A stretch of DNA of 64,000 bases from IMG/VR virus record IMGVR_UViG_3300042898_006838, positions 91,933-155,932 of that record; one strand, 5' to 3'. The translations under genes were made by a program, and so were the position numbers. The stretch's first letter is position 1, and each line of letters starts with the position of its first letter. Shown piece by piece: positions 48,969 to 64,000 of the stretch. The DNA comes from a virus. The notes under the pieces were generated by a model. The model ran no database searches. It had not been told where the DNA came from and was given only the letters and a program-made list of their open reading frames with translations.

Positions 48969-49052
48969 TCCCGTTCCTCCATGGTCTCGATTCGAGGGCA
49001 CGCGGTTTCCCGTCGCGTGTCGTTCCCTGTCCTCGTCTCTTTGTTGTCGTTG

Positions 49053-49928
49053 TTACCGGGTCGGTAAAGGTAGCCTTGCCGGCCTGCGGCTGGCAACGGC
49101 TCGCTGGTAGTCGAAGATCTCGACGTTTTGCGTCAGGAACGATTGCCGGTGCTGAAGCCAGCCTAGGAAGTTGCCGCTGCGTTGGCTTGCGTCGGCAAGG
49201 GCCTGGGCCTGGTGCTCAAACGGGCTCCAGTGCCCACTTGATGACAATGACGATGTCAGCTCCAAGTCCTTGCTCACGATCGGTAGACTGCCGTCGTGGT
49301 TCTTGTAGCTGACGCGCGCGCAGCGGGCGACGCTGCAGGCCAGCAGGGTCTTGATGTCCAGCGTCAGCCTCTCGCCCGCGGTCGTGAACGGCAGATGCCA
49401 CTCGCCGTCGGCACAGGGCCGGGGCTGAGAGTTGAAGTAGGCGTCAGCCATCGCCCAGCCCAGGTCCTGCATCGTCGGGTCGGCGTCGGGGTGACAGCGG
49501 AGGGTGAAGAAGTTGTTGAAGTCCGTGGCCGTGCAGACCACGGCCATGTGCTGCCAGGGCTCGGTTACGCGGTTGGCGATCTGCTTGTGGCAGCCGATCT
49601 CCGCCAGGTGCGCACTGGTTCGCGCCGCCACTCTCGCCGCCCCGCGCCACACGGCCTGAGCGGCCTTGAGGTCGATGTCTTCCAACAGCCGCCGGCTCTG
49701 CATCCCCGGCTCGTTGCGTCCCCACTCACTGGGCTCAGCCGGCTCGCTGTCCACGGCCTCGATCATCTTCGAGATCGGGATTGCCCGCGACGAGCTGGCG
49801 TTGCGGCTGAAGACCCGGTGGGTCATGAACTCGCCGTGGACAAAGCGCGGGTACACGAGCTTCAGCGTCGTCACCCTCGCGCCGCCCGTCGACAGGCTGT
49901 CCATCACGATCTCAGCGCTGATTGTCAT
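49053..49928 (-). CDS. thyX: Flavin-dependent thymidylate synthase
   Basis: A 291-residue protein from ATG 49928 with AAGGAGG upstream. THRVFSRNASSSRAIP is the phage-type form of the ThyX RHR...S motif, with HWSPFEHQA near the C-terminus. The family makes dTMP from dUMP with FAD and methylene-THF. It is near the RNR and kinase genes. The last 60 residues look like a variable, basic extension. Confidence 0.88.
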   Translation of the reverse strand: MTISAEIVMDSLSTGGARVTTLKLVYPRFVHGEFMTHRVFSRNASSSRAIPISKMIEAVDSEPAEPSEWGRNEPGMQSRRLLEDIDLKAAQAVWRGAARVAARTSAHLAEIGCHKQIANRVTEPWQHMAVVCTATDFNNFFTLRCHPDADPTMQDLGWAMADAYFNSQPRPCADGEWHLPFTTAGERLTLDIKTLLACSVARCARVSYKNHDGSLPIVSKDLELTSSLSSSGHWSPFEHQAQALADASQRSGNFLGWLQHRQSFLTQNVEIFDYQRAVASRRPARLPLPTR

Positions 49929-50121
49929 CGACGGCCTCCTTGATCTCGTAGATCTTTCCGCTCACGCACCTGGCCATGCCCCTGAGCTCCAGGCCCCGGA
50001 GCGTGCTGTATTCCATGCCCTGTGCCGTCACCGGCCCCAGGCGCAGACGCTCCAACATCGCCGTCATCGCCGTCGTCAACGGCCTGGACTCGTTGACGAA
50101 CCTGCCCCATCGCGCGCGCAC
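49912..50121 (-). CDS. Small hypothetical protein
   Basis: A 69-residue protein from GTG 50121. MTAMLERLRLGPVTAQGMEY then LRGLELRGMARCVSGKIYE resembles a small winged-helix segment, common in phage hypothetical proteins. It overlaps the ThyX gene by 17 nt. Confidence 0.55.
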   Translation of the reverse strand: MRARWGRFVNESRPLTTAMTAMLERLRLGPVTAQGMEYSTLRGLELRGMARCVSGKIYEIKEAVDDNQR

Positions 50122-50124
50122 GAC

Positions 50125-50568
50125 TCACGGCTCCGGGATCATGGCGTTGGGCCAGGCGCAGACGGCGCCGGTCTTCTCGCAGGCCACGGCGAATACCGCG
50201 GGCCAGGGGATGTCGCAGAAGCTGTTGACGCCTGCGAATCCGAGGCTGGCCCGAACACCTCGCTGGTCGTAGTTGAAATCGGCGATGCCGAACTTCTTCG
50301 AGAAGTTCAGGACCTGAACTACTTCTCCACGCATTGACTCCGGGATAACGACTCCATCGACCCCCGTGACCAGGCGCACTTGCACCTTCGAATCCGAGAT
50401 CATGAGCGTGAAGACCATGAGCTTCACGGCGTCGTCCATCGACACCTTCACAGCCGGTTTCGGCGCTGGCGTCGCTGTCTTCGGCTTCGTCGTCGAACGT
50501 CCCTTGCTGAAGTCCACGCTGATGACGTTATCGCTCACGTCATTCTTCGTCGGTGTCGTCGATGTCAT
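50125..50568 (-). CDS. SspB-like ClpXP adaptor
   Basis: A 147-residue protein from ATG 50568 (an ATG at 50625 is possible but lies in the overlap). After a basic, Thr/Pro-rich N-terminal segment, the core has GVVIPESMRG, then FNYDQRGVRASLGFAG, CDIPWPAVFAVACEKTG and CAWPNAMIPE, matching SspB proteins of high-GC proteobacteria. SspB delivers ssrA-tagged substrates to ClpXP; a phage copy could redirect host proteolysis. Its usual C-terminal ClpX-binding tail is not obvious. Confidence 0.7.
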   Translation of the reverse strand: MTSTTPTKNDVSDNVISVDFSKGRSTTKPKTATPAPKPAVKVSMDDAVKLMVFTLMISDSKVQVRLVTGVDGVVIPESMRGEVVQVLNFSKKFGIADFNYDQRGVRASLGFAGVNSFCDIPWPAVFAVACEKTGAVCAWPNAMIPEP

Positions 50569-50683
50569 CGTCGTCATCCTCATCGTCGTCGCCGTCTTCT
50601 TCACGCTCTTCGTCTTCGAGGTCATCGTCGTCTTCCAGTTCTTCTTCGCTGGGGATCTCTGAACCGTTTTCGATTGTCATCAT
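50540..50683 (-). CDS. Very acidic small protein
   Basis: A 47-residue protein from ATG 50683 with AGGAGAGC upstream, about 60% Asp and Glu in the C-terminal half. It overlaps the SspB-like gene by 29 nt. It may be a DNA mimic, but the low-complexity sequence makes function unclear. Confidence 0.5.
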   Translation of the reverse strand: MMTIENGSEIPSEEELEDDDDLEDEEREEDGDDDEDDDDDIDDTDEE

Positions 50684-50696
50684 CTTGCTCTCCTCT

Positions 50697-51329
50697 TCAC
50701 TGCCGGCCGCTGATTGCGGACCGAAGACTTTCGACGATGCCACTGACGTCGGCATCTTCCAACCAGGGCACGGTCAGGATCTTCATGCCCCGGCTCCAGG
50801 CGTGGCGGCCGGAAGCGACGTCTTCCAACAGCTTCTGGTAGTGCCTGTTCAGGTCCTGAAGGTAGCCGATGCTGACCCCGACCTCTGCTCCCCGGGCCCG
50901 CGTGACCATGCGCTTGTAGGCTTCGTCCGGCTTCACGTCCAGGTACAGCAGGATACTGGGCGTCGGCGTGCCCAGGATCATCTGCTCGTAGAGCTCTTCG
51001 TACGTGTTCCACATGTCCCGGTCGACGTTACCGGCCTCGACGTGCATGGCCATGAACACGCGGTCCCCGGGCAGTCCTCGGTCGACGACGGCGCCGGCAC
51101 CGCAGGCGGCTTCAGCTGTGGCCAGGCGGTGCATGGCCCAGCGCCTGTTGAGTAGGAACACTTGCATCGGGAACACCCACTTCCCCGGGTCCTGGTAGCT
51201 GCGGGTCAGGAACGGGTTGTCGTCGACGGGCTCGAAGATGCCGCGGAGCCCAAGATGGCTGGCGACCGCGCGCGTGACCGTGGTCTTCCCGGCTCCGATC
51301 AATCCCTCGACCCAAACGACTGTGCCCAT
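50697..51329 (-). CDS. Deoxynucleoside kinase
   Basis: A 210-residue protein from ATG 51329 with AGGGGT upstream. EGLIGAGKTT (P-loop), EPVDDNPFL, then DRGLPGDRVF and an RARGAE lid fit deoxynucleoside kinases (dGK/dCK-like). It phosphorylates salvaged deoxynucleosides, completing the nucleotide set of this phage. A TTCGTGACCAA repeat lies just upstream. Confidence 0.85.
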   Translation of the reverse strand: MGTVVWVEGLIGAGKTTVTRAVASHLGLRGIFEPVDDNPFLTRSYQDPGKWVFPMQVFLLNRRWAMHRLATAEAACGAGAVVDRGLPGDRVFMAMHVEAGNVDRDMWNTYEELYEQMILGTPTPSILLYLDVKPDEAYKRMVTRARGAEVGVSIGYLQDLNRHYQKLLEDVASGRHAWSRGMKILTVPWLEDADVSGIVESLRSAISGRQ

Positions 51330-51342
51330 GTTGACCCCTAAG

Positions 51343-51354
51343 TTGGTCACGAAC
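51343..51354 (-). repeat. TTCGTGACCAA repeat
   Basis: Shares GTTCGTGACCAA with the two repeats upstream of parB (39032 and 39094). Also shares GTCAGCTCTGA nearby. Located 14 nt before the kinase ATG, suggesting a shared regulator. Confidence 0.5.
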
Positions 51355-52138: not shown

Positions 52139-53056
52139 TTACAAGCCAAATCTCGCGAGTGTTGACGGTGAGAATTTCTTCATTGTTTCTATCTTGTTTA
52201 AGAACTTCTCTGGCGCCTTATAGTTGAACCTGTTGAGTAGGTTTTTCCTCATGGCTTTGGAGAATCCGTGCTGCTGAACGTGGTCCCAACCACGTTTACC
52301 GTATGCCTGCATAACGACTTTTTCTGCATCTTTGAAACTACTGGCGACGCTTGATGTTATTCTTTCTGGATCTTCAGACACCCGGCTTTGAAACCTCTTC
52401 AAAAGGTCTTTCTTCATCGACTTGGTGAAGCCGTGTTGCTTGACGTAATCCCAGCCTTTGGCTCCATAGGCTTTGTTGATCACGCCCTTGATGTCTTTCA
52501 TCTCGCCGCCGGCTCTCATACGCAGTTGGACTCGGCGGGCCTCATCTGATCCCGGGCCGGTCATCTTCTTGACCAGGTTGAACTCGTCGAAGATCACCTT
52601 CGGTGAGTGGTGTCCGAAATCATCATCGTATTCGGAGACGACCTGGTGTGGCTTGATACGTCTCTCGCCGACTTCGTGAAGACCTGACCTGATGTTGTTG
52701 GCTCTCCAGCCCTCAGCCGTCCTCGGAGAATACCTTCCGCCTTGGCTGTGCCCGGCCCCGCGTCTGGTCATGAACGCTTTTCCATCGACATTGCTTTTGT
52801 CGACTAAGTTAGACGCCTGTTCCTTGAGTGGATCGGATACTGATGGAAAATCTCTCCAGGCGCGAGCTTCTTGTCTCAGATTGGCTTTACCTTGTGACGC
52901 TTTCGGAACCGAGAAAGGCCCCTCTTCGTCCATGGCCCTCATGCCGCCACGTGTAAGCCTGACGATACCGGCACGGTTGTACGCGGCCTGCAGCTCCTCG
53001 ACGCTGGCTGCCACCTTCTCCAGGCCCGCGCGTACACCGTCTTCAAAGCTGGTCAT
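52139..53056 (-). CDS. Tagged protein with two helical repeats
   Basis: A 305-residue protein from ATG 53056. It starts MTSFEDGVRAGLEKVA, the tag shared with other proteins of this module. Two repeats of about 36 residues (188-223 and 243-278) carry AYGxKGWDxVxQHGFxKxM. Its lower GC codon use around 52150-52500 differs from that of its neighbours. It is likely a virion-associated protein; no enzyme motif is visible. Confidence 0.65.
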   Translation of the reverse strand: MTSFEDGVRAGLEKVAASVEELQAAYNRAGIVRLTRGGMRAMDEEGPFSVPKASQGKANLRQEARAWRDFPSVSDPLKEQASNLVDKSNVDGKAFMTRRGAGHSQGGRYSPRTAEGWRANNIRSGLHEVGERRIKPHQVVSEYDDDFGHHSPKVIFDEFNLVKKMTGPGSDEARRVQLRMRAGGEMKDIKGVINKAYGAKGWDYVKQHGFTKSMKKDLLKRFQSRVSEDPERITSSVASSFKDAEKVVMQAYGKRGWDHVQQHGFSKAMRKNLLNRFNYKAPEKFLNKIETMKKFSPSTLARFGL

Positions 53057-53059
53057 GGC

Positions 53060-53314
53060 CTACATCCTCGTGTTCACGAACAATGGCGTCTTCGGTCCCA
53101 GCCACGAGCCGGCGACGTTGAAGTCGAAGAACTCACGGGCCTCGTCCAGGTCCATGCCGTCCCTGGCCATCAACGTCTCCAGGCACAGCCACTCGTCGTA
53201 GACCACGAAGGTCTCGCCGCCGCGACTGGCCGTGCCGATGATGGCGCCGTCGAAGCCGTCGGCGAACAACAGCTCTTCGTCGCCACTGGACTCGACACAT
53301 TCTTCCCTGGTCAT
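53060..53314 (-). CDS. Small conserved phage protein
   Basis: An 84-residue acidic protein from ATG 53314 (AGGTG upstream). ADGFDGAIIG, then VVYDEWLCLE and EFFDFNVAGSWLG resemble a phage family known only as hypothetical. Positioned between two tagged virion-module genes. Confidence 0.6.
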   Translation of the reverse strand: MTREECVESSGDEELLFADGFDGAIIGTASRGGETFVVYDEWLCLETLMARDGMDLDEAREFFDFNVAGSWLGPKTPLFVNTRM

Positions 53315-53323
53315 GGCTTGCAC

Positions 53324-53986
53324 CTAGCTGTTGGCTGCGGCGTTGAACCTGGCGACGGCTGACGGATCATTCATCCAGCTGCCGCTCTGTACCATGCGCG
53401 GCGCGATTTTCTTGCCGAAGAACTTATCGATGAAGTTGGCCTTCGGTGCCTCTGTCTTCTGCTTGTAGCCGAGTCCGTGTTCAAGTTGCTGGCCGGCATT
53501 GGACATGCGGCCCGGCGACATCTGCATCTCCACGGGCGTGCCCTTGTACGTGCCCTTGACGTTGACGCCGTGGTATCCGGGCCGGGCTTTGACGCTGTGG
53601 CTGATGTTCTCCACGCCGTGAGCCTTCAGCTTCTTGATCACGTCCGCAGCGTGTTCCGGGCTGGAGCTGTAGGACTGCATGCCCAGCAGGTCGTCAGGAA
53701 CTTCCTTCAGTCCCTTGGCGGCCATGGACGCGTGGCTCTTGACGCGGGCGCGATGCACCTTGACGCCCTTGCCCTTCAGGCCCGACATCAACTCCTCGCC
53801 CGCGGAGACGGCGGCCTTGCGCTGAGCCGTGAACAGCCCGTCTCCACCGGCCACGAGCTTCTTGCCGCCGAGGATTGCGCCCTTGATGGCCTTGATGCCG
53901 TGGGGGATGAGTTCGCGAAGACCTTCCTTGTCCATCGCCGCCGTCTTCGCGATACCGGCGCGCACGCCCTCGTCAAAAGCAGTCAT
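53324..53986 (-). CDS. Tagged protein with a RelA/SpoT-like region
   Basis: A 220-residue protein from ATG 53986 with GAGGTG upstream. The N-terminus MTAFDEGVRAGIAKTA is the module tag. Residues 115-190 (LLGMQSYSS...VIKKLKAHGV, then GYHGVNVKGTYKGTPVEMQM and a following helix) look like a remote RelA/SpoT nucleotidyltransferase region, but the usual R...D/E set is incomplete, so activity is doubtful. It could be an ejected virion protein. Confidence 0.5.
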   Translation of the reverse strand: MTAFDEGVRAGIAKTAAMDKEGLRELIPHGIKAIKGAILGGKKLVAGGDGLFTAQRKAAVSAGEELMSGLKGKGVKVHRARVKSHASMAAKGLKEVPDDLLGMQSYSSSPEHAADVIKKLKAHGVENISHSVKARPGYHGVNVKGTYKGTPVEMQMSPGRMSNAGQQLEHGLGYKQKTEAPKANFIDKFFGKKIAPRMVQSGSWMNDPSAVARFNAAANS

Positions 53987-54438
53987 CTCGTCACCTCGTT
54001 GAGAGCAAAAGCAATTCCCACGCACATGCCCGCGCCGGCGGCAAAGGACAGGGGCGCATCCACCCACTCCCAGGCGTCCTCGGCGACAGCTGACACACGT
54101 GGGGCGATTCCGCACAGGGTCTGCTGCTGTGCGATTACGCTCTCAAGGCGCGTGACGTGGTCGGTCAGCACCCGCTTCTGAGCCTGCAGCTCGTCGACAG
54201 CGCGCTTCAGATCGTCGTCGTGGGCGCTGAGCTTATTCAGGTCGGCCTGCGCCGCCGTCAGTGCCGGTTCGCACAGCTCCAGCTTCCGGTCGCTGGCGTC
54301 CACCTGGTCCCAGACGTCGGTGCGCACCAGCACGTGGCTGGCGGCGTATTTCGCACAGCCGCCGTCGACGGGGACCAGGGCCGGAGCCTGCGCCTGGCCG
54401 GCGGCGGTGAGCAGGAAGAGGATGAGCGCCTGCCTCAT
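53983..54438 (-). CDS. Signal peptide plus coiled coil plus membrane helix
   Basis: A 151-residue protein from ATG 54438, coupled to the upstream stop (ATGA). Residues 1-18 form a signal peptide (ends GQAQA), residues about 55-110 form a coiled coil (LNKLSAHDDDLKRAVDEL...), and the C-terminus has a hydrophobic segment (PLSFAAGAGMCVGIAFAL). The architecture recalls envelope-spanning proteins. It could be a spanin-like lysis protein or a tail/ejection factor. Confidence 0.55.
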   Translation of the reverse strand: MRQALILFLLTAAGQAQAPALVPVDGGCAKYAASHVLVRTDVWDQVDASDRKLELCEPALTAAQADLNKLSAHDDDLKRAVDELQAQKRVLTDHVTRLESVIAQQQTLCGIAPRVSAVAEDAWEWVDAPLSFAAGAGMCVGIAFALNEVTR

Positions 54439-54989
54439 GACTTCATGTCCTTGACCGTCGATGCCGCCCAGGCCGCGCCGGCGTCGCCGCCCCACAGGTC
54501 CCAGGCGATGCTGCCCTTGGGCGTGTCCTTGTTCCGGCGGTGCCGGCTGAAGAAGGCGTGCATGCGCTTGACGGTCTCCGGGCTCACCGACCTGCCGCTG
54601 GCCAGGGTCTGGGCCCTGACGACGCCGCTGCCGATGCCCTGGGCCCCGGCCTGTGTCGCGGTCAGGCCACCGCGTCTGCTGGCCGGCGCCTTGCGCCTGG
54701 CCTCCAGACCCCGACGCGCGGCGGCACGCACGGCCTCCGGGGGAGCGAGACCGGCTGACGCCGTCTTCGACATCTTCGAGGCCCACATGTTGTCGACGAG
54801 GTTCGGGTACGGACGCCCGGCCGCCGCCGCCCGCTCCCGGGCCCGCGTTCGCCACTCGTCGCTGAGCCCCGGGCCCTTGCCGGCGTCCTTGGGCGCTGGC
54901 TTCTTCCACGGCGGTTTCTCGGCCGCCGTCTTCTCCAGGCCCGTGACGACGCCGGCTTCGAATGCTGCGGTCAACAACGTCTCAATCAC
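54435..54989 (-). CDS. Tagged protein with a conserved C-terminal motif
   Basis: A 184-residue protein from GTG 54989. It contains AAFEAGVVTGLEKTA, the module tag. The C-terminal part has RAQTLASGRSVSPETVKRM and AWDLWGGDAGAAWA, a motif seen in many phage proteins next to head or tail genes, function not known to me. Probably virion-associated. Confidence 0.6.
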   Translation of the reverse strand: MIETLLTAAFEAGVVTGLEKTAAEKPPWKKPAPKDAGKGPGLSDEWRTRARERAAAAGRPYPNLVDNMWASKMSKTASAGLAPPEAVRAAARRGLEARRKAPASRRGGLTATQAGAQGIGSGVVRAQTLASGRSVSPETVKRMHAFFSRHRRNKDTPKGSIAWDLWGGDAGAAWAASTVKDMKS

Positions 54990-55001
54990 GGCTTGTGCCT
55001 C

Positions 55002-55937
55002 TCAGGTTGTGGTGGAAGCGTTGTGGGTCAACTCGACCCACAAAGTGCCGTCGAAGAAAAATGACATGTTGCCACCCGGGTCGATGGTGCGGTTGGCGTT
55101 GCTGAGCGACAGCGCCGTTGCGACTCCGCGGTTGAGCTGAGCGTGGAACGTCGTCCCCACATTTTGCAGGATCAAGACAGTGCCAACATCCACACCGGCC
55201 GTTGGGATTGTTGGTGTCGAGGTCAGGCTCCTGTTGCCCCCTGAGACCTGGAAGCGATGAAGCGCCGACGTCGGCAGCAACTGCTGTCCGTCGCTGGACA
55301 CGGTCTGAACCGCTCCGGTTCCCAGAACCAGATCCGGCAGCGGGCCGGTTGGCCAGTCGGACGAGGACAGGGATGAGCCGGGCACGAAAGACACGGTGAT
55401 CGACGGATCGCCGTCGTAGGCCATGAACACGTCCACGGACACGCAGCGCAGAGCCTCGGCACCGAGCAGTGACACGGGCGTTGATCCTGATGCCGGCAGT
55501 GGCGAACCGGCATAGGTGGCCACGGTGTCACTGACTACGCCGGTGATGACACGGTCCTGCCCGCCGGAGCGGACCATGCGACCCTCGTCACCGGCGCTGA
55601 ACAGCGGCTGGCTGACGGTAACCGTGCCGGCGACAGTCGTGACGCCGGTGACGGTGTCGTGGACAGCCGAGGCCAGGGCCTCGTCGACGGCAGACTGCGC
55701 GGCCGTCAGCTTCTGCTTCTCGACAACGAAGGCCTGCAAGTTCTCGTCGCTGACGCCAGCGAGCTGGTACGACAAGGCCGTGACGTAGCGCGTGTCTCCG
55801 TCGTTCTGACGGTACACGGCCGTCGGCGTCTGGTTGACGAAGACGTCAACTGGAAGCGTGGACATGAACGCGGCGAGAGCCGACCTCAGACCAACGAGGC
55901 TGTCGCTGCTGACGAGTTCGATGCCGGCGGTGTTCAT
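55002..55937 (-). CDS. Structural beta-rich protein, possible fibre/spike
   Basis: A 311-residue protein from ATG 55937 with GGAGGTGAG upstream. Middle region FSAGDEGRMVRSG...GSTPVSLLGAEALRCV is similar in order to the product at 61686-62291. The C-terminal region (FHAQLNRGVATALSLSNAN... FFFDGTLWVELTHN) resembles ends of phage tail-fibre or spike proteins. A role at the host surface is inferred. Confidence 0.6.
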   Translation of the reverse strand: MNTAGIELVSSDSLVGLRSALAAFMSTLPVDVFVNQTPTAVYRQNDGDTRYVTALSYQLAGVSDENLQAFVVEKQKLTAAQSAVDEALASAVHDTVTGVTTVAGTVTVSQPLFSAGDEGRMVRSGGQDRVITGVVSDTVATYAGSPLPASGSTPVSLLGAEALRCVSVDVFMAYDGDPSITVSFVPGSSLSSSDWPTGPLPDLVLGTGAVQTVSSDGQQLLPTSALHRFQVSGGNRSLTSTPTIPTAGVDVGTVLILQNVGTTFHAQLNRGVATALSLSNANRTIDPGGNMSFFFDGTLWVELTHNASTTT

Positions 55938-56302
55938 TTCTCACCTCCGCCGCCACCGACGTTGGCCTTGATGTTGTGCGTGGCGAAGTACAGGCTGCTG
56001 GCGGCGCCGAGCATGGCCAGCGCCGCGTTGCTGTCGAAGGCCGGGATGACGTGGCCGAACACCGTCGCGCCGGCGCCCAGGCCCTGCAGCAGCCACAGGC
56101 CCAGGCCCGCGGACCAGGCCAAGACCAGGATCGCACTGGTCTTGCTGAAGTCGCCGTTCTTGAAGAACAGCGCCTTCACGCCCTTGACGTCAGGGCTGCC
56201 GTCGCCGTCGCTGTCCAGGCTGGCGAACAGGTGATCGAGCGCCGCTCGATCCTCGGGGCCGAGTTTCTCGGCCAGGGCCTTGAGTTGATCCGGGTTCACC
56301 AT
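55934..56302 (-). CDS. Membrane protein with EF-hand-like loop (holin candidate)
   Basis: A 122-residue protein from ATG 56302. Residues about 27-38 include DSDGDGSPD, a calcium-loop type motif. Two hydrophobic segments follow (ILVLAWSAGLGLWLLQGLG and NAALAMLGAASSLYFA), with a Gly-rich tail. A small two-TM protein near other small membrane proteins may be a holin. The EF-hand-like loop is unusual. Confidence 0.55.
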   Translation of the reverse strand: MVNPDQLKALAEKLGPEDRAALDHLFASLDSDGDGSPDVKGVKALFFKNGDFSKTSAILVLAWSAGLGLWLLQGLGAGATVFGHVIPAFDSNAALAMLGAASSLYFATHNIKANVGGGGGEK

Positions 56303-56312
56303 GGCCCAGAGA

Positions 56313-56513
56313 CTATGGCGTTGGCACCGGCTGGTCCACACCACCGTCAACGATCACCGGCTCACCGGCCGTCACCGTCGGCACCGGTTTCTCTGACGGA
56401 GTTACTGCAGATTCAAGCGGCTTCTGGAGCCCTGAAAGATCCATGCCCAGGAAGCCTCCGAGCAAGCCGAGGAGCAGGGTCAGGACGTGGCTGATGATCA
56501 ACTTTTTGTTCAC
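56313..56513 (-). CDS. Small secreted or membrane protein
   Basis: A 66-residue protein from GTG 56513 with GAGGTAC upstream. Residues 4-22 are hydrophobic (TM or signal); the C-terminus is Pro/Val-rich. It could be an outer-membrane spanin-like partner, but no lipobox Cys is visible. Confidence 0.5.
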   Translation of the reverse strand: MNKKLIISHVLTLLLGLLGGFLGMDLSGLQKPLESAVTPSEKPVPTVTAGEPVIVDGGVDQPVPTP

Positions 56514-56764
56514 GAGTACCTCTTGTTTGCGTCTGAGACGCGGTCACGAAATTGGTCGTCGACGTCCTTCGCCTTCTCGGCATAGTCGTCGGCTGGATTG
56601 GTGTTAACGGCTGGCTTGTCACCGACGACGATGTCAGGCAACACCGGACGCTCAGGCGTCACGACCTGACCGCCTCTACGGTTGAAGACCACGGCCGCGA
56701 CAAAGGCCATGACCGCGCCCAGGCCCGCCAGCAGCCAGTACCAACGCTCTTTAATCCAAATCAT
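56510..56764 (-). CDS. Small membrane-anchored protein (spanin candidate)
   Basis: An 84-residue protein from ATG 56764. A single N-terminal TM (WLLAGLGAVMAFVAAVVF) is followed by a Pro-rich stretch and a charged C-terminal helix (DYAEKAKDVDDQFRDRVSDANKR), the inner-membrane spanin shape. Overlaps both neighbours. Confidence 0.55.
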   Translation of the reverse strand: MIWIKERWYWLLAGLGAVMAFVAAVVFNRRGGQVVTPERPVLPDIVVGDKPAVNTNPADDYAEKAKDVDDQFRDRVSDANKRYS

Positions 56765-57087
56765 CACTGCTTCTTCCCCACATGCAAAAGGAACGGGGTG
56801 ATGCCGCTGCGCTTCAACATCGCGCTGCCGTTGTAGGCCAGGGCGCCGAGGATCACGCCCAGGATCAGGCGCTGGGCGTCGTTGACATCGTCAGGCATCC
56901 ACGGCCCGGGCACAAATACGCTGCAGAGCACGCAGAATGACAACGGAATCAGCGGCTCGGCCCTGTTCATCAGCCGACCCTTCTCAAAGTGCCAGGGGAA
57001 TAGGCGCTCGATCGTGACCATCAGGATCCAGACGGCGGCGCAGAGCATCACGTTCCACTCCCGGGCCAGGAGGTCGACAAGGCTCAC
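56764..57087 (-). CDS. Small membrane protein (holin candidate)
   Basis: A 107-residue protein from GTG 57087 with up to three hydrophobic stretches (VMLCAAVWILMVTI, PLIPLSFCVLCSVFVPG, LILGVILGALAYNGSAML). Size and layout fit a holin. It precedes three other small membrane-protein genes (56510, 56313, 55934), together resembling a lysis cassette. Confidence 0.55.
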   Translation of the reverse strand: MSLVDLLAREWNVMLCAAVWILMVTIERLFPWHFEKGRLMNRAEPLIPLSFCVLCSVFVPGPWMPDDVNDAQRLILGVILGALAYNGSAMLKRSGITPFLLHVGKKQ

Positions 57088-57695
57088 TTGGGCGCCAACC
57101 CGATGACCGGCAGGTTCTTCACCACCGGCGTCTTCTCGCGGAAAGACTTGCTCCTATTCACGGCCATGTTTCCCAGTGCGATGCCAATGCCGGCGCCGGC
57201 GCCGAGCATGACTCCAGCACCCATCCCCGCGACAGCCAATGGTCTCCATGACCGCGTCAGCGTCTGGCCGATGAGCTTGCTGGCGTTGTCCGGGCTCAGG
57301 CTCTTGCTGACGGCTTCGTTGGCAACGTCGGCGATCAGCTTCCTGTTGTTGTTCAGCGTCTGGTCGAGTGCTTGGCTGGTGGCATCGGCGAACCACTTCT
57401 TGTTCTCTGGCGTCATCACGCTCTTCACCGCCGACGCACTCATGTTCGAGGCCATGTCACTCATGCCCTTGACGGCACCGGGGCTGGCGATGTTGGTCAT
57501 CACGTCCTGAGCCACGGTGCTCACGGCCTTTGATGCCTGAGCCTGGTTTCCGGAGCTGAGAAGGAAACGGCCGACGACGTTGGCCCCTTCGTCCCTGTGC
57601 GTGACGACCTTTCCAGCCTTTGACTTGAACCAGTCCCAGGGTCCGGCGACCTTCTCGATACCGGCCCTCGTTCCGACTTCAAAGCTCGTGGTCAT
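57084..57695 (-). CDS. Tagged protein with C-terminal membrane segment
   Basis: A 203-residue protein from ATG 57695 with GGGGAAG upstream. It starts MTTSFEVGTRAGIEKVA, the module tag. The middle is helical; a Gly-rich hydrophobic segment (LAVAGMGAGVMLGAGAGIGIALG) near the C-terminus could be a TM or a glycine zipper. Likely virion-associated or ejected. Confidence 0.6.
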   Translation of the reverse strand: MTTSFEVGTRAGIEKVAGPWDWFKSKAGKVVTHRDEGANVVGRFLLSSGNQAQASKAVSTVAQDVMTNIASPGAVKGMSDMASNMSASAVKSVMTPENKKWFADATSQALDQTLNNNRKLIADVANEAVSKSLSPDNASKLIGQTLTRSWRPLAVAGMGAGVMLGAGAGIGIALGNMAVNRSKSFREKTPVVKNLPVIGLAPK

Positions 57696-59200
57696 GACTT
57701 CTTCCCCGTCAGCGACGCGACCCACTCCGGGACCCCACGTCCCTTCTTCTGCCTGCCACTGGCGTCACTGCGCATCTCGTCGTCGAGAGGAATGCTTATC
57801 GACCTGGCCGCCGTCGCCGCACCTATGTCCCTGTCGGCTTCACCCGGTGTCTGGGCGTTGGCATATTTCTTCGGGCTCATGTCGCTGTGGATCTTGGCAG
57901 CAGCCAGCGCCGCCAGTGTCAGGCCCGCGGCGGCAAGTGCGCCCTTGGTCTTGCGGCCCATGGGCATGGACTCAAGAGCCTTCTTTCCGCCGCTCTTGGC
58001 GGCAGACGACGCTCTCCTCGTCACCATCTCGGGTCTGGGCGGGAGCTCCTTGAGGCCGTTCTTCAAAACCGGCTTCGGCTTGGTCTTCAGCGCCACACCC
58101 TGATCCTGACGGTGACCGCGTGCGGCCATCAGCATCCGGTTCCGCTGAAGCTTCTTGGCAGCGTCCTCCATCTGCACCTTCCTGGTCTCAGGGAAGCCGC
58201 TGTTCCGGCCGCTGGCGGTCAGGTCGTCCCACAACCTCTCGTCAGCCACGCGCTGAGCCAGCTCGTTGCTGATTGCCACCTTCTCCACGCCCGCACGCTG
58301 CCCGAGTCTGTTGGCCACGGCCGCGCCGCCGACACCGGCTCCGCCGACGACGCCGGCGCCGAGGGCCATGCGGCCCTTGCGGAAGTAGGGGATGACGCCG
58401 CCTCCCGTCGGCCGCTTGCCGTTGGCCGCCGCCAGCACCAGGCCGTGCCTGCTGAGTCCCTCGGTCTTCACGCCCTTGGCCTCGGCAGCACGCCGCAGCA
58501 TCTGGTCAGCGCCGAAGCCGGTGCCAGGCTTGATCTTGATGTCGATGCCGGTCACGGGCGTTATCTTCTCGGCTCCGAGGTTGTCGAAGGCGGTGGTGAT
58601 CGACCGGTTGAGCTTGTCGTAGTCGTAGCCCTCAAGCTGAGCGGCCCCGCGCCCACGGTCCAGGATCTGCTTCTTCACCTGGGACATGGGCTTGTGAACG
58701 CGGATGACGGCGTCGAACTTGTCTGGGTCGACCTGCGACAGCAGATGCGTCTGCTCGGCGATGACTCCGCGCCGGATCGGGTTCTTCTTCACCCACGACA
58801 CCAGGTCGCGGCCGCTCATGCTCTTGCCCACGTCGTCCATCATCAGCGGCGTCATGCCCAGTTCCTGACTCAGGGCCCGCGTCAACGTCGTCTTACCCGT
58901 GCCGCCCGTGCCGCTGACGGCGATGCGTGCCGTAGCCGGGTCGATGCCCTGGGCTCTGAGCGTCATCGCCACCTGCCGCGCCTGATCAACGGCCTGCTGA
59001 GGCAAGCTGGACTGGCGCTCAAGGGCATGGCCTCCGCCCTTTCCAAGGGCTTTGATCTCGGCCAGGAACTGCTTCCGCAGCGCCGGACGTGCGCCGATGA
59101 TCGTGGCAGCGGCGAGACCCGCTGCCCCCAGACCCGCAGCCGCCACCATCGCCCGATGCCGCCAGGGGCTGGGCTGACTGTCGGTCTTTTTGCTCTTCAC
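57692..59200 (-). CDS. P-loop kinase-like membrane protein with internal tag
   Basis: A 502-residue protein from GTG 59200 with GGAGAG upstream. Two N-terminal hydrophobic segments precede a P-loop domain: VSGTGGTGKTTLTRAL (Walker A, about residue 94), MMDDVGKS and a later RRGVIAEQTHL...DAVIRVHKP, similar to zeta-toxin or AAA-like kinases. Near residue 295 it has RLGQRAGVEKVA, the module tag in internal position, after a Gly/Ala membrane-like segment. A C-terminal membrane-like segment follows. It may be ejected into the host. Confidence 0.65.
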   Translation of the reverse strand: MKSKKTDSQPSPWRHRAMVAAAGLGAAGLAAATIIGARPALRKQFLAEIKALGKGGGHALERQSSLPQQAVDQARQVAMTLRAQGIDPATARIAVSGTGGTGKTTLTRALSQELGMTPLMMDDVGKSMSGRDLVSWVKKNPIRRGVIAEQTHLLSQVDPDKFDAVIRVHKPMSQVKKQILDRGRGAAQLEGYDYDKLNRSITTAFDNLGAEKITPVTGIDIKIKPGTGFGADQMLRRAAEAKGVKTEGLSRHGLVLAAANGKRPTGGGVIPYFRKGRMALGAGVVGGAGVGGAAVANRLGQRAGVEKVAISNELAQRVADERLWDDLTASGRNSGFPETRKVQMEDAAKKLQRNRMLMAARGHRQDQGVALKTKPKPVLKNGLKELPPRPEMVTRRASSAAKSGGKKALESMPMGRKTKGALAAAGLTLAALAAAKIHSDMSPKKYANAQTPGEADRDIGAATAARSISIPLDDEMRSDASGRQKKGRGVPEWVASLTGKKS

Positions 59201-59427
59201 GGTGCACTCTCCACGGTCACGATGTAGCCCAGGGCCACGAACTGACTCTCACGGCCCAGGTCTCTGAAGTCTTTGTCGCCGGCGACGACGGCCTGATCCA
59301 GCTTCTCTCGCCTCAGGAAGGCCAGGGCGCTGTCGATGGACGTGAAGAACGGCCACTTCGCGCGCGTACGCAGCCAGTGCTCACGACACTTTCCGCTGAG
59401 ACTGCGAATGACCACGATCTGCTTCAT
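59197..59427 (-). CDS. Small hypothetical protein
   Basis: A 76-residue protein from ATG 59427 (GTG 59430 is adjacent). VIRSLSGKCREHWLRTRAKW is basic, then an alpha/beta region. Coupled to its neighbours. Not recognised. Confidence 0.55.
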   Translation of the reverse strand: MKQIVVIRSLSGKCREHWLRTRAKWPFFTSIDSALAFLRREKLDQAVVAGDKDFRDLGRESQFVALGYIVTVESAP

Positions 59428-59690
59428 CACGTCACCACGTGAACAGCGCCCTGTGCGACTTCACGCGCCAGGGACTGGGCCACGGCACGCGCCTGGGCCT
59501 GGAGGTAGTAGTGAGTGCCTACTCCTCCGGCCGCGGCGCCGAGGAGCATGTACTTTCGGCGCTGGTCGTTGTCCGGCGTCGCCGGAGCCAAGGCACTGCC
59601 GATGAAGAAGCCGGTAATGGCATTCTGCAGCACGCGTGGGTCAAGGCCCGCGCGCACACCGGCTTGGAAGCTTGCGGATTTGTTCACCAC
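59427..59690 (-). CDS. Tagged small membrane-associated protein
   Basis: An 87-residue protein from GTG 59690 (GTG 59687 is alternative). It starts with SASFQAGVRAGLDP, a tag variant. A Gly/Ala segment (MLLGAAAGGVGTHYYLQ) may insert in a membrane. Virion module member. Confidence 0.55.
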   Translation of the reverse strand: MVNKSASFQAGVRAGLDPRVLQNAITGFFIGSALAPATPDNDQRRKYMLLGAAAGGVGTHYYLQAQARAVAQSLAREVAQGAVHVVT

Positions 59691-59702
59691 GTCTCGACTC
59701 CT

Positions 59703-60371
59703 TCAGACTTCAACTATCTCAGATGTAGCACCTGCGAGCAGGCGGCGGAACCGGGAGCTGAATGCGAACTTGTCGTCATAGCCCATGACCACGTAGGCCT
59801 TGGCGGCCTCGTCATCTACAGCCTGATCCAGGACTCCGTTGATCTCCAGGCCTCCGCCCGTGATCTTGTTCAGAGCCATTTGCACGCCGAAGTTGTCGAG
59901 GCTGAAGTCGTAGAGGCTGCTGATGCGAGCCAGTACGGTCTCGTGGCCAGCGAGGTAATCGAAGTGACCGGTCTCGACCTTCGCACCCTGCCACCCGAAT
60001 TGACGAAGCCAGCGGCTGAGGGAGCCAAAGTCACGACCAGCCGTCATCAGGTCAGGCTTCTTCGAGGACATGAACGCAGCTAGCGTCTCGTCGACAGCCA
60101 CGTCCAAGCTCATGCCGAAGTTGTGACCACTTTGAGTAGGTCGAGCGTAGTCACGATCCAGGCCATTCGACGCGGCCTGCAGGTGGCTGGCGACGGACGT
60201 GAACGCGGCCTTGAAGGTCACGGCCTGGCCGCAGGCGTCTTGGAGATCCTTCAGCGACTCGGCGGCGTCGGGCTGAAGCAGGCAGCATTCGGCGGGTAGA
60301 AACCCGTCGTCGGAGCCATTGAATCCAGGCCAGGCCCTGACCCTGACTCTCCGCAGAGACAGAGTCAGCAC
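59703..60371 (-). CDS. M15 (VanY-like) peptidase
   Basis: A 222-residue protein from GTG 60371. FKAAFTSVASHL, then SGHNFGMSLDV (zinc His and Asp) and GHFDYL (third zinc His) fit the M15 D,D-carboxypeptidase/endolysin fold. Together with the M15A gene at 46205 and the M14-like gene at 43278, this phage encodes three candidate peptidoglycan peptidases. Here it lies among virion genes and might be tail-associated. Confidence 0.8.
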   Translation of the reverse strand: MLTLSLRRVRVRAWPGFNGSDDGFLPAECCLLQPDAAESLKDLQDACGQAVTFKAAFTSVASHLQAASNGLDRDYARPTQSGHNFGMSLDVAVDETLAAFMSSKKPDLMTAGRDFGSLSRWLRQFGWQGAKVETGHFDYLAGHETVLARISSLYDFSLDNFGVQMALNKITGGGLEINGVLDQAVDDEAAKAYVVMGYDDKFAFSSRFRRLLAGATSEIVEV

Positions 60372-60763
60372 GACAATCTCACGCCAGAATCGACGCCGGC
60401 ATCGTATGCCGCTGTCTTGTCCCGCCGGTGCCTGTATGCGACCGTCAGCCCCGCTAACGGCAGGGCCAGGCTGGCCGCGGCTGCGGGGAGTGAATCCTTC
60501 TTCTTCACGAACATGCTCGCAGCCCGTGCGGCCAGGCTCGCGCCCGTGACGGCGGCGGCACCTTGGATCAGGCGCTTCTCGCCCTTCTTCAGCTTCTCCG
60601 CCGTCTTCGTGCTCGCCGGCTCGTCACCCGGCTTTGCGGGTTGAGGGTCTTCGGTGACGGGCGGGTTGTTTTCCGGCGGCGACATGGGCAGCGAACCGCC
60701 CTGCTGTGAGGGCAGAAAGAAGCGCTTCCGCTTCTTTTTTCTCCTGACCTCTTCGACACTCAT
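60365..60763 (-). CDS. Tagged protein with C-terminal tag
   Basis: A 132-residue protein from ATG 60763. A Lys/Arg-rich N-terminus and a Pro-rich linker precede helical, Ala-rich segments (AAAVTGASLAARAASMFV and PAAAASLALPLAG) and the C-terminal AAYDAGVDSGVRL, a variant of the module tag at the very end. Overlaps both neighbours. Confidence 0.55.
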   Translation of the reverse strand: MSVEEVRRKKKRKRFFLPSQQGGSLPMSPPENNPPVTEDPQPAKPGDEPASTKTAEKLKKGEKRLIQGAAAVTGASLAARAASMFVKKKDSLPAAAASLALPLAGLTVAYRHRRDKTAAYDAGVDSGVRLSC

Positions 60764-61002
60764 CGTCGCCGCTTCTTCTTCAGAGCCCCGTGAGCCATGC
60801 TGCCCAGGGCCGCGAGACCGGATGCCAGCGCCGCGCCCTCGACGGGCTTGTCAAAGTAGGCAGAGCCGATGCCGGCGCCAATGCCGCCAGCCACGCCCAT
60901 CAGCGCCTCCGGTCCGGCGGCGCGCCTGAATTTCGAGCCGCGGCTCTCAGCCGCCAGCTTCACGCCGTCGGCGGCGCCGATGTCGAAGGCCTGAGAGCTC
61001 AT
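60760..61002 (-). CDS. Tagged small protein
   Basis: An 80-residue protein from ATG 61002, coupled to the upstream stop (ATGA). It starts SSQAFDIGAADGVKLAA, a tag variant. A Gly/Ala segment and basic tail (KKKRRR) follow. Virion module. Confidence 0.55.
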   Translation of the reverse strand: MSSQAFDIGAADGVKLAAESRGSKFRRAAGPEALMGVAGGIGAGIGSAYFDKPVEGAALASGLAALGSMAHGALKKKRRR

Positions 61003-61673
61003 CGATAGGCCATCGCCGACATCATCTCCTGATGGCGGTTTTCTTTGGCCGCATTCTCCAGGTAGCGCTTGCGCTCCTTCGGCGACATCTTGTCCATCTT
61101 CTTCGCGAGCTGAGTACGGCCGTGACCCTTGATCACGCCGCCGAGGGCTCCGAGGGCTCCGAGGGTGCCGGCGCCAACGGCGGCTCCGATCAGCGCGCCT
61201 TTACCGGCCTTGGACTTTCCCATGCCCTTGCGGACACTGGAGCCGAGAGCAGCGCCGTATCCAGCACCGGCGAGACCGCCGAGAGCCGCACTGCCAGCGC
61301 CGTAGCGAGCACCGGTACGAGCCGTCTCTGCGCCGTAGTCACCCTTGGCCCGTTCCTTGTGGCCAGAGACTGCCTTCTGGATCTCTTCCTCGTGGCTGTC
61401 GGCGCTGGGGAGAATACGGAAGTTACGAACGTCGATGGCAGCCAGTTTCATGCCCTCGCCAACGCCGATGTCGAATGCCAGCTTGTCCATATTCATCCTC
61501 CGGGCTTTTTTTAGCCCATGTTCACTGTCTTGAAAGATTCCAGCGACCTTCTCAGGCAACTTCTTGCCCTTCGGGGTCTCACGCTGCCAGCGCCGGGCCG
61601 TGCCCTCGGGGACTTCCCCTCGGGCCTCGGCTGCGAACATGAAACGACGCTGGGCCTGGCTCTTGAACGGCAT
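60999..61673 (-). CDS. Tagged protein with MPFKSQAQ-type N-terminal domain
   Basis: A 224-residue protein from ATG 61673 with GAGGTC upstream. The start MPFKSQAQRRFMFA...KKLPEKV is a small domain seen in many phage proteins. An SD (GGAGG) precedes internal ATGs at about 61494 and 61488, after which LAFDIGVGEGMKLAA (the tag) begins, so a shorter product may be made. Gly-rich segments follow. Likely virion-associated. Confidence 0.6.
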   Translation of the reverse strand: MPFKSQAQRRFMFAAEARGEVPEGTARRWQRETPKGKKLPEKVAGIFQDSEHGLKKARRMNMDKLAFDIGVGEGMKLAAIDVRNFRILPSADSHEEEIQKAVSGHKERAKGDYGAETARTGARYGAGSAALGGLAGAGYGAALGSSVRKGMGKSKAGKGALIGAAVGAGTLGALGALGGVIKGHGRTQLAKKMDKMSPKERKRYLENAAKENRHQEMMSAMAYR

Positions 61674-62923: not shown

Positions 62924-63513
62924 ACCGTGGTCATGAAGCCGCGGCGTCCGACGACGACGCCGCAGGACGTGGTGATGGAGATGTGAACGGAATACAACCT
63001 GTCGGCGACGAGACCCGGCGAGGTCTTCGTCATTCGAAACATGCCCTGGTTGTCTGGAGCAACGTCGCTGGCCGTGAACAAGACACTGTCGTCGGCGTCG
63101 TAGACACTGATAACCGCGGAAGCCACCGTCGGCGGAGGCACGGGCCGGCCGTTGCGGTTGAGGCTGACGTCGATGCGCAGGGTAGAAGACTGATAGTCGT
63201 ACGCCACGCCCATGACCGGCGGATCCCACTCACCGACGCGGATGGTGTCAATAGACCGCTCGTAGTCCGACTCCGTGGTCATGGCCATGTCATTGAACAG
63301 CCGGTAGACGGCAAAGTATCCGCCGGGACACGGAGGAAGCCACTCGGCGCTGTACAGTCCCAGGCTCACGTGGCTCAGGCTCAAGACGTCAATTGGGACA
63401 CTTCCACCAGACTCGTTGAAGATGGAGGCGGTTGGAAACACTGTCCCGACGCCGTCGGTCAGCTGCAGCCCCAGCTGCACCGTGTCACCTGGCAGGGAGT
63501 TGATTACAGACAC
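62920..63513 (-). CDS. Tail/baseplate-like structural protein
   Basis: A 197-residue protein from GTG 63513. DTVQLGLQLTDGVGTVFPTASIF, then SLGLYSAEWLPPCPGGYFAVY and IRVGEWDPP, a beta-sandwich pattern common in phage tail or fibre proteins. Coupled to its neighbour. Confidence 0.6.
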   Translation of the reverse strand: MSVINSLPGDTVQLGLQLTDGVGTVFPTASIFNESGGSVPIDVLSLSHVSLGLYSAEWLPPCPGGYFAVYRLFNDMAMTTESDYERSIDTIRVGEWDPPVMGVAYDYQSSTLRIDVSLNRNGRPVPPPTVASAVISVYDADDSVLFTASDVAPDNQGMFRMTKTSPGLVADRLYSVHISITTSCGVVVGRRGFMTTV

Positions 63514-63519
63514 GGCCTG

Positions 63520-63927
63520 TCACCATCTTCCCGCGGCCAGGGCCGCCGCTGTCGGGAAGAACAAGATCTTGCTGTTCTCGCCTCGCTCTCGACGCCTGGC
63601 CCTGACCGCGGAGATGGCGTCCTTCAGCTCCTGGCTGCCGGCTTCCACCTGGTCGATTTTCTCCTGCAGGACATCGAGCTCGGCGTGAATCTCGCGACCG
63701 CAGCGCATCTCGCCCTGGATCTTCATTGCCAGCAACAGGTCCTTGTCGCTGACATAGTCGAGATGGCGAAGAATAGAGCCAAGCAGCGCCTCATTGAAAT
63801 GAGACTGTTGACCCAGGGCCTTGTGAAGCTGTTCCCTGGTCAGGCGGCCCAGGCGCATAAGCACGTTGCCGATGCTGCTTGGGTCATCAATCGGATGCTG
63901 GCTCGGCTTTTCTTTATTCTTCCTCAT
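63520..63927 (-). CDS. Hypothetical helical protein
   Basis: A 135-residue protein from ATG 63927. GNVLMRLGRLTREQLHKAL followed by LLGSILRHLDYVSDKDLLLAM resembles the repeat-like N-terminal helices of type IV pilus GspE N-domain proteins, but no ATPase follows. A coiled coil is near the C-terminus. Function unknown. Confidence 0.55.
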   Translation of the reverse strand: MRKNKEKPSQHPIDDPSSIGNVLMRLGRLTREQLHKALGQQSHFNEALLGSILRHLDYVSDKDLLLAMKIQGEMRCGREIHAELDVLQEKIDQVEAGSQELKDAISAVRARRRERGENSKILFFPTAAALAAGRW

Positions 63928-64000
63928 CAGCCCTCCAGTAACTTGACGGCCGCCACCAGCTGCTTCTGGTTCTCGTTGACGACTGTAAGAACTTCGACTT
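63927..64000 (-). CDS. Partial CDS running off the right edge
   Basis: The last 23 codons of a minus-strand gene with stop TGA at 63929-63927, overlapping the next start as TGATG. The end reads NENQKQLVAAVKLLEG, helical. The rest is outside the window. Confidence 0.6.
   Translation of the reverse strand, partial: VEVLTVVNENQKQLVAAVKLLEG

Follow-up and report, generated by a model that had tools for sequence, protein, structure and literature searches.

A short peptide tag ending in K-x-A on otherwise unrelated proteins of an uncultivated phage, a candidate capsid-targeting propeptide

The window analyzed here (64,000 nucleotides) is the final part of a 155,932-bp IMG/VR virus record; the other 92 kb of the record were also examined, and gene calls were made by a simple script. 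The record encodes a fused RNA polymerase beta/beta' ORF of 2019 aa, a large terminase, and the major capsid protein, and in our own reading also a long tail-sheath-like protein and tail-fibre-like genes. Its named relatives (Salmonella phage Arash; Vibrio phages D69, D148, and D181) are all distant, and one 18.9-kb contig (L012) carries an RNA polymerase 74% identical to that of the record. Single-sequence scans of viral contigs with the P-loop protein T5 (listed below) or the capsid protein as query returned no matches, but alignment queries (RNA polymerase, protease) recovered relatives where these scans had failed.

The sequence-only reading of the window had noted a peptide repeated in at least nine proteins. 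All nine peptides were found at their reported positions, but they are unequal in completeness: the motif F-[DE]-x-G-x-x-x-G-[LIM]-x-K-[VT]-A is complete in only four of them, and in two more proteins elsewhere in the record, and the others are degenerate or partial. The tagged genes and their tags are, in window coordinates:

52139..53056 (-): T1, tagged protein of 305 aa, with MTSFEDGVRAGLEKVA at the N-terminus
53009..53047 (-): tag in T1, full motif, FEDGVRAGLEKVA
53324..53986 (-): T2, tagged protein of 220 aa, MTAFDEGVRAGIAKTA
53939..53977 (-): tag in T2, full motif, FDEGVRAGIAKTA
54435..54989 (-): T3, tagged protein of 184 aa, C-terminal part similar to PHROG 2859 (unknown function, 3e-16)
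54924..54962 (-): tag in T3, full motif, FEAGVVTGLEKTA
57084..57695 (-): T4-window, tagged protein of 203 aa with a glycine-rich hydrophobic segment
57645..57683 (-): tag in T4-window, full motif, FEVGTRAGIEKVA
57692..59200 (-): T5, P-loop protein of 502 aa (Pfam AAA_18, 3.8e-7) carrying a half-tag internally
58274..58312 (-): internal half-tag in T5, second half only, NRLGQRAGVEKVA (17.9 and 15.8 bits)
59427..59690 (-): T6, protein of 87 aa with the tag-like SFQAGVRAGLDP, lacking the K-x-A end, with K-S-A immediately before
59631..59669 (-): degenerate tag in T6, FQAGVRAGLDPRV
60365..60763 (-): T7, protein of 132 aa with the C-terminal end KTAAYDAGVDSGVRLSC
60368..60406 (-): C-terminal tag remnant in T7, YDAGVDSGVRLSC, with K-T-A before it
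60760..61002 (-): T8, glycine-rich protein of 80 aa, MSSQAFDIGAADGVKLAA
60949..60987 (-): tag in T8, FDIGAADGVKLAA, K-x-A one residue early
60999..61673 (-): T9, protein of 224 aa, in which an N-terminal domain common to other phages of the group is followed by LPEKVAG, the tag, and a glycine-rich part
61437..61475 (-): tag in T9, FDIGVGEGMKLAA, at residue 67, K-x-A one residue early

Seven full copies all have F1, G4, G8, K11, and A13 and a hydrophobic residue at position 9, and the tags of T8 and T9 keep the F..G...G part. Exceptions to the N-terminal position are T5 and T9 (internal) and T7 (C-terminal), and the K-x-A end is missing from T6 and T7. Several tagged proteins have glycine-rich hydrophobic segments; the functions of the tagged proteins in general, referred to below as cargo, were assigned from domain matches only. 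A hydrophobic-moment test for an amphipathic helix in the tag was not significant in most copies, and for this reason no helix is claimed.

The repeated peptide is real, its full copies lying far above shuffled sequence. A PSSM built from the four full window copies gave 31.2 and 27.8 bits to the two full copies outside the window, and its best scores on five shuffles of all six-frame ORFs were 11.4-14.6. With a six-copy PSSM, the six full copies scored 34.5-37.4 bits, and the best score per shuffle, over 100 shuffles of the proteome, averaged 10.5 and never exceeded 17.3. A seedless motif search returned G...G..K.A in 8/182 N-termini, the count for any such pattern in shuffles being at most 4. 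Partial copies, at 12-18 bits, score in a range that shuffles also reach, and the case for them is one of position and context, so that the shuffled control proposed in the sequence-only reading separates the strong copies from the weak ones. These weakest copies would fit a chance likeness of short alanine- or glycine-rich N-termini; for the full copies, two of which were found blind, chance is refuted by the shuffle scores, and as an account of the tag it is scarcely credible.

A motif search of the whole genome, likewise proposed there, yielded two further full copies and several partial ones beyond the window:

L005 8719-9123 (record 68719-69123): full tag copy
L005 12809-13147 (record 72809-73147): full tag copy
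L005 8230-8715: partial tag copy
L005 11315-12796: partial tag copy
L006 5781-6098: partial tag copy

The two full copies lie ~70-80 kb from those of the window, near the RNA polymerase and terminase genes, and tag copies occur in distant gene blocks and on both strands. An ACP-like ortholog beside the RNA polymerase gene of L012 has the full tag FAAGAAEGMVKVA, retained at 52% identity, and the adjacent tagged gene is absent there. Searching viral contigs with a degenerate DNA version of F[DE]xGxxAG[L..]EK[V/T..]A gave no further contig, indicating that the exact tag dialect is rare.

The earlier observation that the tagged proteins share nothing else was borne out by BLASTP: among 14 tag-bearing proteins compared with the tag masked, there was no mutual match at E <= 0.1. 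Shared homologous domains were rejected as the cause of the repeat on this ground, and gene duplication was rejected because no similarity was found outside the tag. If the repeats were functionless remnants of duplicated genes or of a mobile gene 5' end, several tagged genes might be expected close together on one strand, as is seen; but the copies in distant blocks on both strands, the lack of similarity beyond the tag, its retention in the L012 ortholog, and the repetition in relatives of other tags with the same end (below) make this origin very improbable.

The tag terminates in K-[VT]-A, and the same end motif, K-x-A, is present in the capsid protein, scaffold, and protease of the record alike. 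Relative to expectation, K[VTIL]A stands at 3.9-fold in the genes at 80-91.5 kb of the record and 2.5-fold at 54.7-80 kb (the portal-to-terminase segment), compared with 1.0-fold in tail genes and 1.2-fold in early genes; with the middle residue free, the excess of K.A in 80-91.5 kb is modest (32/19.7). Proteins with an N-terminal K-x-A are concentrated in the head region and in window 52-64 kb (22/63 vs. 6/111, Fisher P = 7e-7). The most extreme protein for K[VTIL]A (9 vs. 0.6 expected) is encoded by one gene of the head cluster:

record 80003-81418: head-maturation protease gene, 471 aa

This protease gene adjoins the scaffold and capsid genes. Against PHROG, the protein matches head maturation proteases weakly; its Vibrio phage D69 homolog (154604-156019 of the D69 record) matches these at 6.6e-7, and other homologs are annotated as "capsid maturation protease" or "prohead protease." Sequence searches of the PDB with the capsid protein and the protease found no relatives, and both were placed by fold comparison alone. 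For the protease, the fold was taken from an AlphaFold2 model of the homolog in contig L044 (pLDDT 86.6), whose best solved match is T4 gp21 (5jbl, probability 0.99, with a weak E-value of 3.4e-3); Epstein-Barr virus protease is also among its best fold matches, and 163 BFVD matches at E <= 0.001 include named prohead proteases. By this model of a homolog, the putative protease of the record would fold like T4 gp21. The alignment of homologs includes invariant His and Ser columns, and, among complete cores, K-x-A flanks the protease core on one side in 31/33 and on the other side in 33/33.

Protease homologs are present in 80 contigs. Among 400 spaced residue pairs in the surrounding genes, K.A ranks first (5038 vs. 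2742 expected, z = 43.8, a z-score that overstates independence because some of the contigs are near-duplicates), and it is enriched >1.3-fold in 78/80 contigs. The group consensus, counted on 1198 distinct proteins, is [MLF]-E-K-x-A|S, with Ser preferred next. In all 60 of 60 distinct major capsid proteins, a K-x-A with a free middle residue lies near the N-terminus (0.25 expected in each), mostly 12-14 residues downstream of a Phe; one capsid protein was modelled and shows the HK97 fold. The capsid N-terminus of Arash and D69, F-I-D-K-[IL]-D-Q-G-L-[VT]-K-E-A, aligns in register with F-E-D-G-V-R-A-G-L-E-K-V-A of the cargo; the corresponding stretch in the capsid protein of the record, FVENIRDPAMRKEA, is one residue longer. 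Arash has K-x-A head proteins (the basis of its "structural protein" labels is not stated), and no repeated cargo tag was found in it, so that not every member of the group tags its cargo. K.A enrichment is moderate in Bacillus phage G, and the signal is not clear in Rhodococcus phage E3, which has a distant protease homolog. Among the papers searched, none that bears on head cleavage at K-x-A or on the tag peptides was found.

Relatives repeat tags of their own. NKYLEKIA-type tags occur at 13 places in one fragment of 76.7 kb (G006) and at 9 places within the 80 kb read of another of 82.9 kb (G010), carried by SNF2 helicase, DNA-ligase-like, ferritin-like, and glycine-rich proteins; [AG]FxxELxKIA is repeated in L047, L050, and L060, and MIVKQAG in L045. 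All four tag dialects have the K-x-A end. Some SNF2 helicase orthologs begin directly at an LKxHQ motif and others have a tag before it, and the T9 homolog in L047/L048 has the dialect of its own phage at the aligned place. Judged from these alignments, tags are grafted onto otherwise unrelated enzymes across relatives. To the earlier reading, this sequence analysis adds a putative processing signature (K-x-A), tag copies beyond the window, and the different dialects that relatives use.

In phage T4, a capsid-targeting sequence (CTS) on the internal proteins IPI-III is cut by the prohead protease gp21, as described in PMC9026906 and PMC3012670; by the account in PMC9026906 it has 10 residues, of which the N-terminal part targets and the end is processed. 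The T4 L/I-x-E and SPN3US A-x-E sites, so far as they are set out in PMC9026906 and PMC10052503, are distributed over capsid, scaffold, and protease as K-x-A is here. Like the CTS, the tag is a short N-terminal peptide (T5, T7, and T9 excepted) on otherwise unrelated proteins, and it ends in the motif that is also seen in the capsid protein, scaffold, and protease of the same phage, the protease model resembling gp21. Unlike the CTS, it differs in sequence, has K-x-A (Ala at the predicted cut and Ser after it) in place of L/I-x-E, is carried by a larger and more diverse set of proteins, and varies from one relative to another; L/I-x-E was looked for at the tag end, and none was found, the tags ending in K-[VT]-A. 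The analogy to T4 drawn in the sequence-only reading is thus largely supported by the shared end signature and the grafting, but it does not extend to the sequence or to the L/I-x-E motif. Neither its sequence nor its motif makes the tag a T4 CTS, but it appears to work like one.

We consider it quite probable that the tag is a capsid-targeting propeptide, T4-like in kind, with a predicted K-x-A|S cleavage site replacing L/I-x-E. The F-x-x-G-x-x-x-G-[LIM] part would be read in prohead assembly by scaffold/core or protease, and unrelated cargo would by this means be drawn into the prohead, as we propose. The tag end, [LIM]-E-K-[VT]-A, would be the cleavage site of the gp21-like protease (record 80003-81418), cut after Ala; cleavage would remove the tag and free the cargo within the head, and the freed cargo would presumably be ejected together with the DNA. 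The point of cleavage, the targeting role, and the presence of tagged proteins in virions and their ejection are our inferences. An ejection role and a docking peptide, both named in the earlier reading, may be parts of this same mechanism.

The many K-x-A sites with unlike flanks in scaffold-like proteins and in the protease would also suit a tag that is a protease processing site only, with the cargo reaching the head along another route and its N-terminal peptide simply trimmed. This is unlikely, however: the cargo copies share F1, G4, G8, residue 9, K11, and A13, far beyond K-x-A, and each relative repeats a longer dialect of its own that a bare cleavage site would not need. Alternatively, the tag may have no part in head maturation and serve to dock its protein to a different partner (the portal, the tail, RNA polymerase, or a membrane site), the K-x-A end being coincidental, which would agree with the glycine-rich hydrophobic segments of several tagged proteins and with the two full tags that adjoin RNA polymerase and terminase genes. 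Set against this, the tag end matches the capsid/protease/scaffold signature of the group in residue and context, all four dialects end in K-x-A, and the hydrophobic-moment test lends no support to an amphipathic docking helix, so that we regard such docking as distinctly unlikely.

Extended to the group as a whole, the targeting-propeptide reading is one to which we give even chances: a large, mostly uncultivated group of phages would have a gp21-like protease with K-x-A|S specificity and lineage-specific tag dialects grafted onto varying cargo (helicases, ligases, ferritin-like, P-loop, and glycine-zipper proteins), and the tags would form a readable code for proteins that are packaged and injected. 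Phage proteins that are carried in the head and injected include anti-restriction factors, ADP-ribosyltransferases, and polymerases, and they are hard to spot by homology. If tag and K-x-A mark cargo, the packaged proteins of this group could be listed from sequence, and short tags could be tried as a means of loading selected proteins into the heads of phages. An Ala-specific site would also be added to the phage head proteases, the best-studied of which cut after Glu.

Herpesvirus assemblin sites are Ala|Ser, few in number, and located in scaffold and protease, and we know of no cargo tags of this kind in that system; their agreement with the predicted cut here, with Ala on one side and Ser on the other, is a suggestive likeness. 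Encapsulin cargo-loading peptides are short, C-terminal, and uncleaved; they bind the shell, which has the HK97 fold, and bring cargo into it. Unlike them, the tag is mainly N-terminal (with one C-terminal remnant, in T7) and ends in a predicted cleavage site. The N-terminal 30 residues of phage P1 DarB suffice to bring a reporter into the capsid, and the P1 Dar proteins, unlike the tagged proteins here, have no common consensus (PMC9024508). The head maturation sites of SPN3US and phiKZ are given as A-x-E or S/A-x-E in PMC10052503 and PMC9026906, with Glu before the cut where Ala is predicted here; their propeptides are for the most part long, at 111-254 residues, and the excerpted text of these two sources reports no short tag common to several proteins. 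By the same excerpts, the K-x-A signature resembles the SPN3US and phiKZ sites in being a three-residue motif with a free middle residue and Ser favoured after the cut (here a predicted one), in the several motifs per propeptide, and in a predicted counterpart of the protease self-cleavage of SPN3US and phiKZ (PMC10052503, PMC9026906).

The K-x-A specificity predicted for the head-maturation protease may, judging from sequence, extend as far as Bacillus phage G, given that K.A ranked first among all spaced pairs in the 5–45 kb region of that genome. The protease has a distant homolog there, gp19 (L124 11841-12743), which is itself K-x-A-rich.

The N-terminal domain of T9 (MPFKSQAQRR...LPEK), a 224-aa tagged protein (window 60999-61673, minus strand), was found again in four contigs of related phages (L047, L048, L080, and L101); in L047 and L048 it is followed by that phage's own tag dialect. 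The NKYL tag, a dialect of the NKYLEKIA type with the same K-x-A end, is borne by two further proteins, among others, in relatives. The first, of 70 aa (L033 4827-5036), is ferritin-like (Pfam EncFtn-like, 1.1e-11) and is possibly a virion-packaged ferritin. The second (L061 6946-7608) has an HGTS motif and looks ADP-ribosyltransferase-like on reading, Pfam gives no match for it, and it is homologous (30%, 7e-13) to gp96 of Salmonella phage Arash (L010 5253-5927), which is annotated as "structural."

A protein encoded at L005 8230-8715 (record 68230-68715), between RNA polymerase and terminase, is also tagged and has a domain resembling acyl carrier proteins (PHROG 5934, E = 2.8e-4); its ortholog in the 18.9-kb relative L012 has a full tag. 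The RNA polymerase is a single 2019-aa ORF (L005 1786-7845; record 61786-67845) in which beta and beta′ are fused, as they are in L012 (74% identity); in Arash and Vibrio D69 they are separate ORFs.

Nucleotide genes in window 46674-51350 adjoin the tagged block, all putative and assigned by reading of the sequence:

Ribonucleotide-reductase-like ORF
ThyX-like ORF
Deoxynucleoside-kinase-like ORF

The tagged block probably continues into the tail genes with which the record opens. Window 62943-63998 is 93% identical across 1056 bp to L002 1-1056, the record start. Either the genome is circular or terminally redundant and was joined with differences between strains, or 1 kb has been duplicated.
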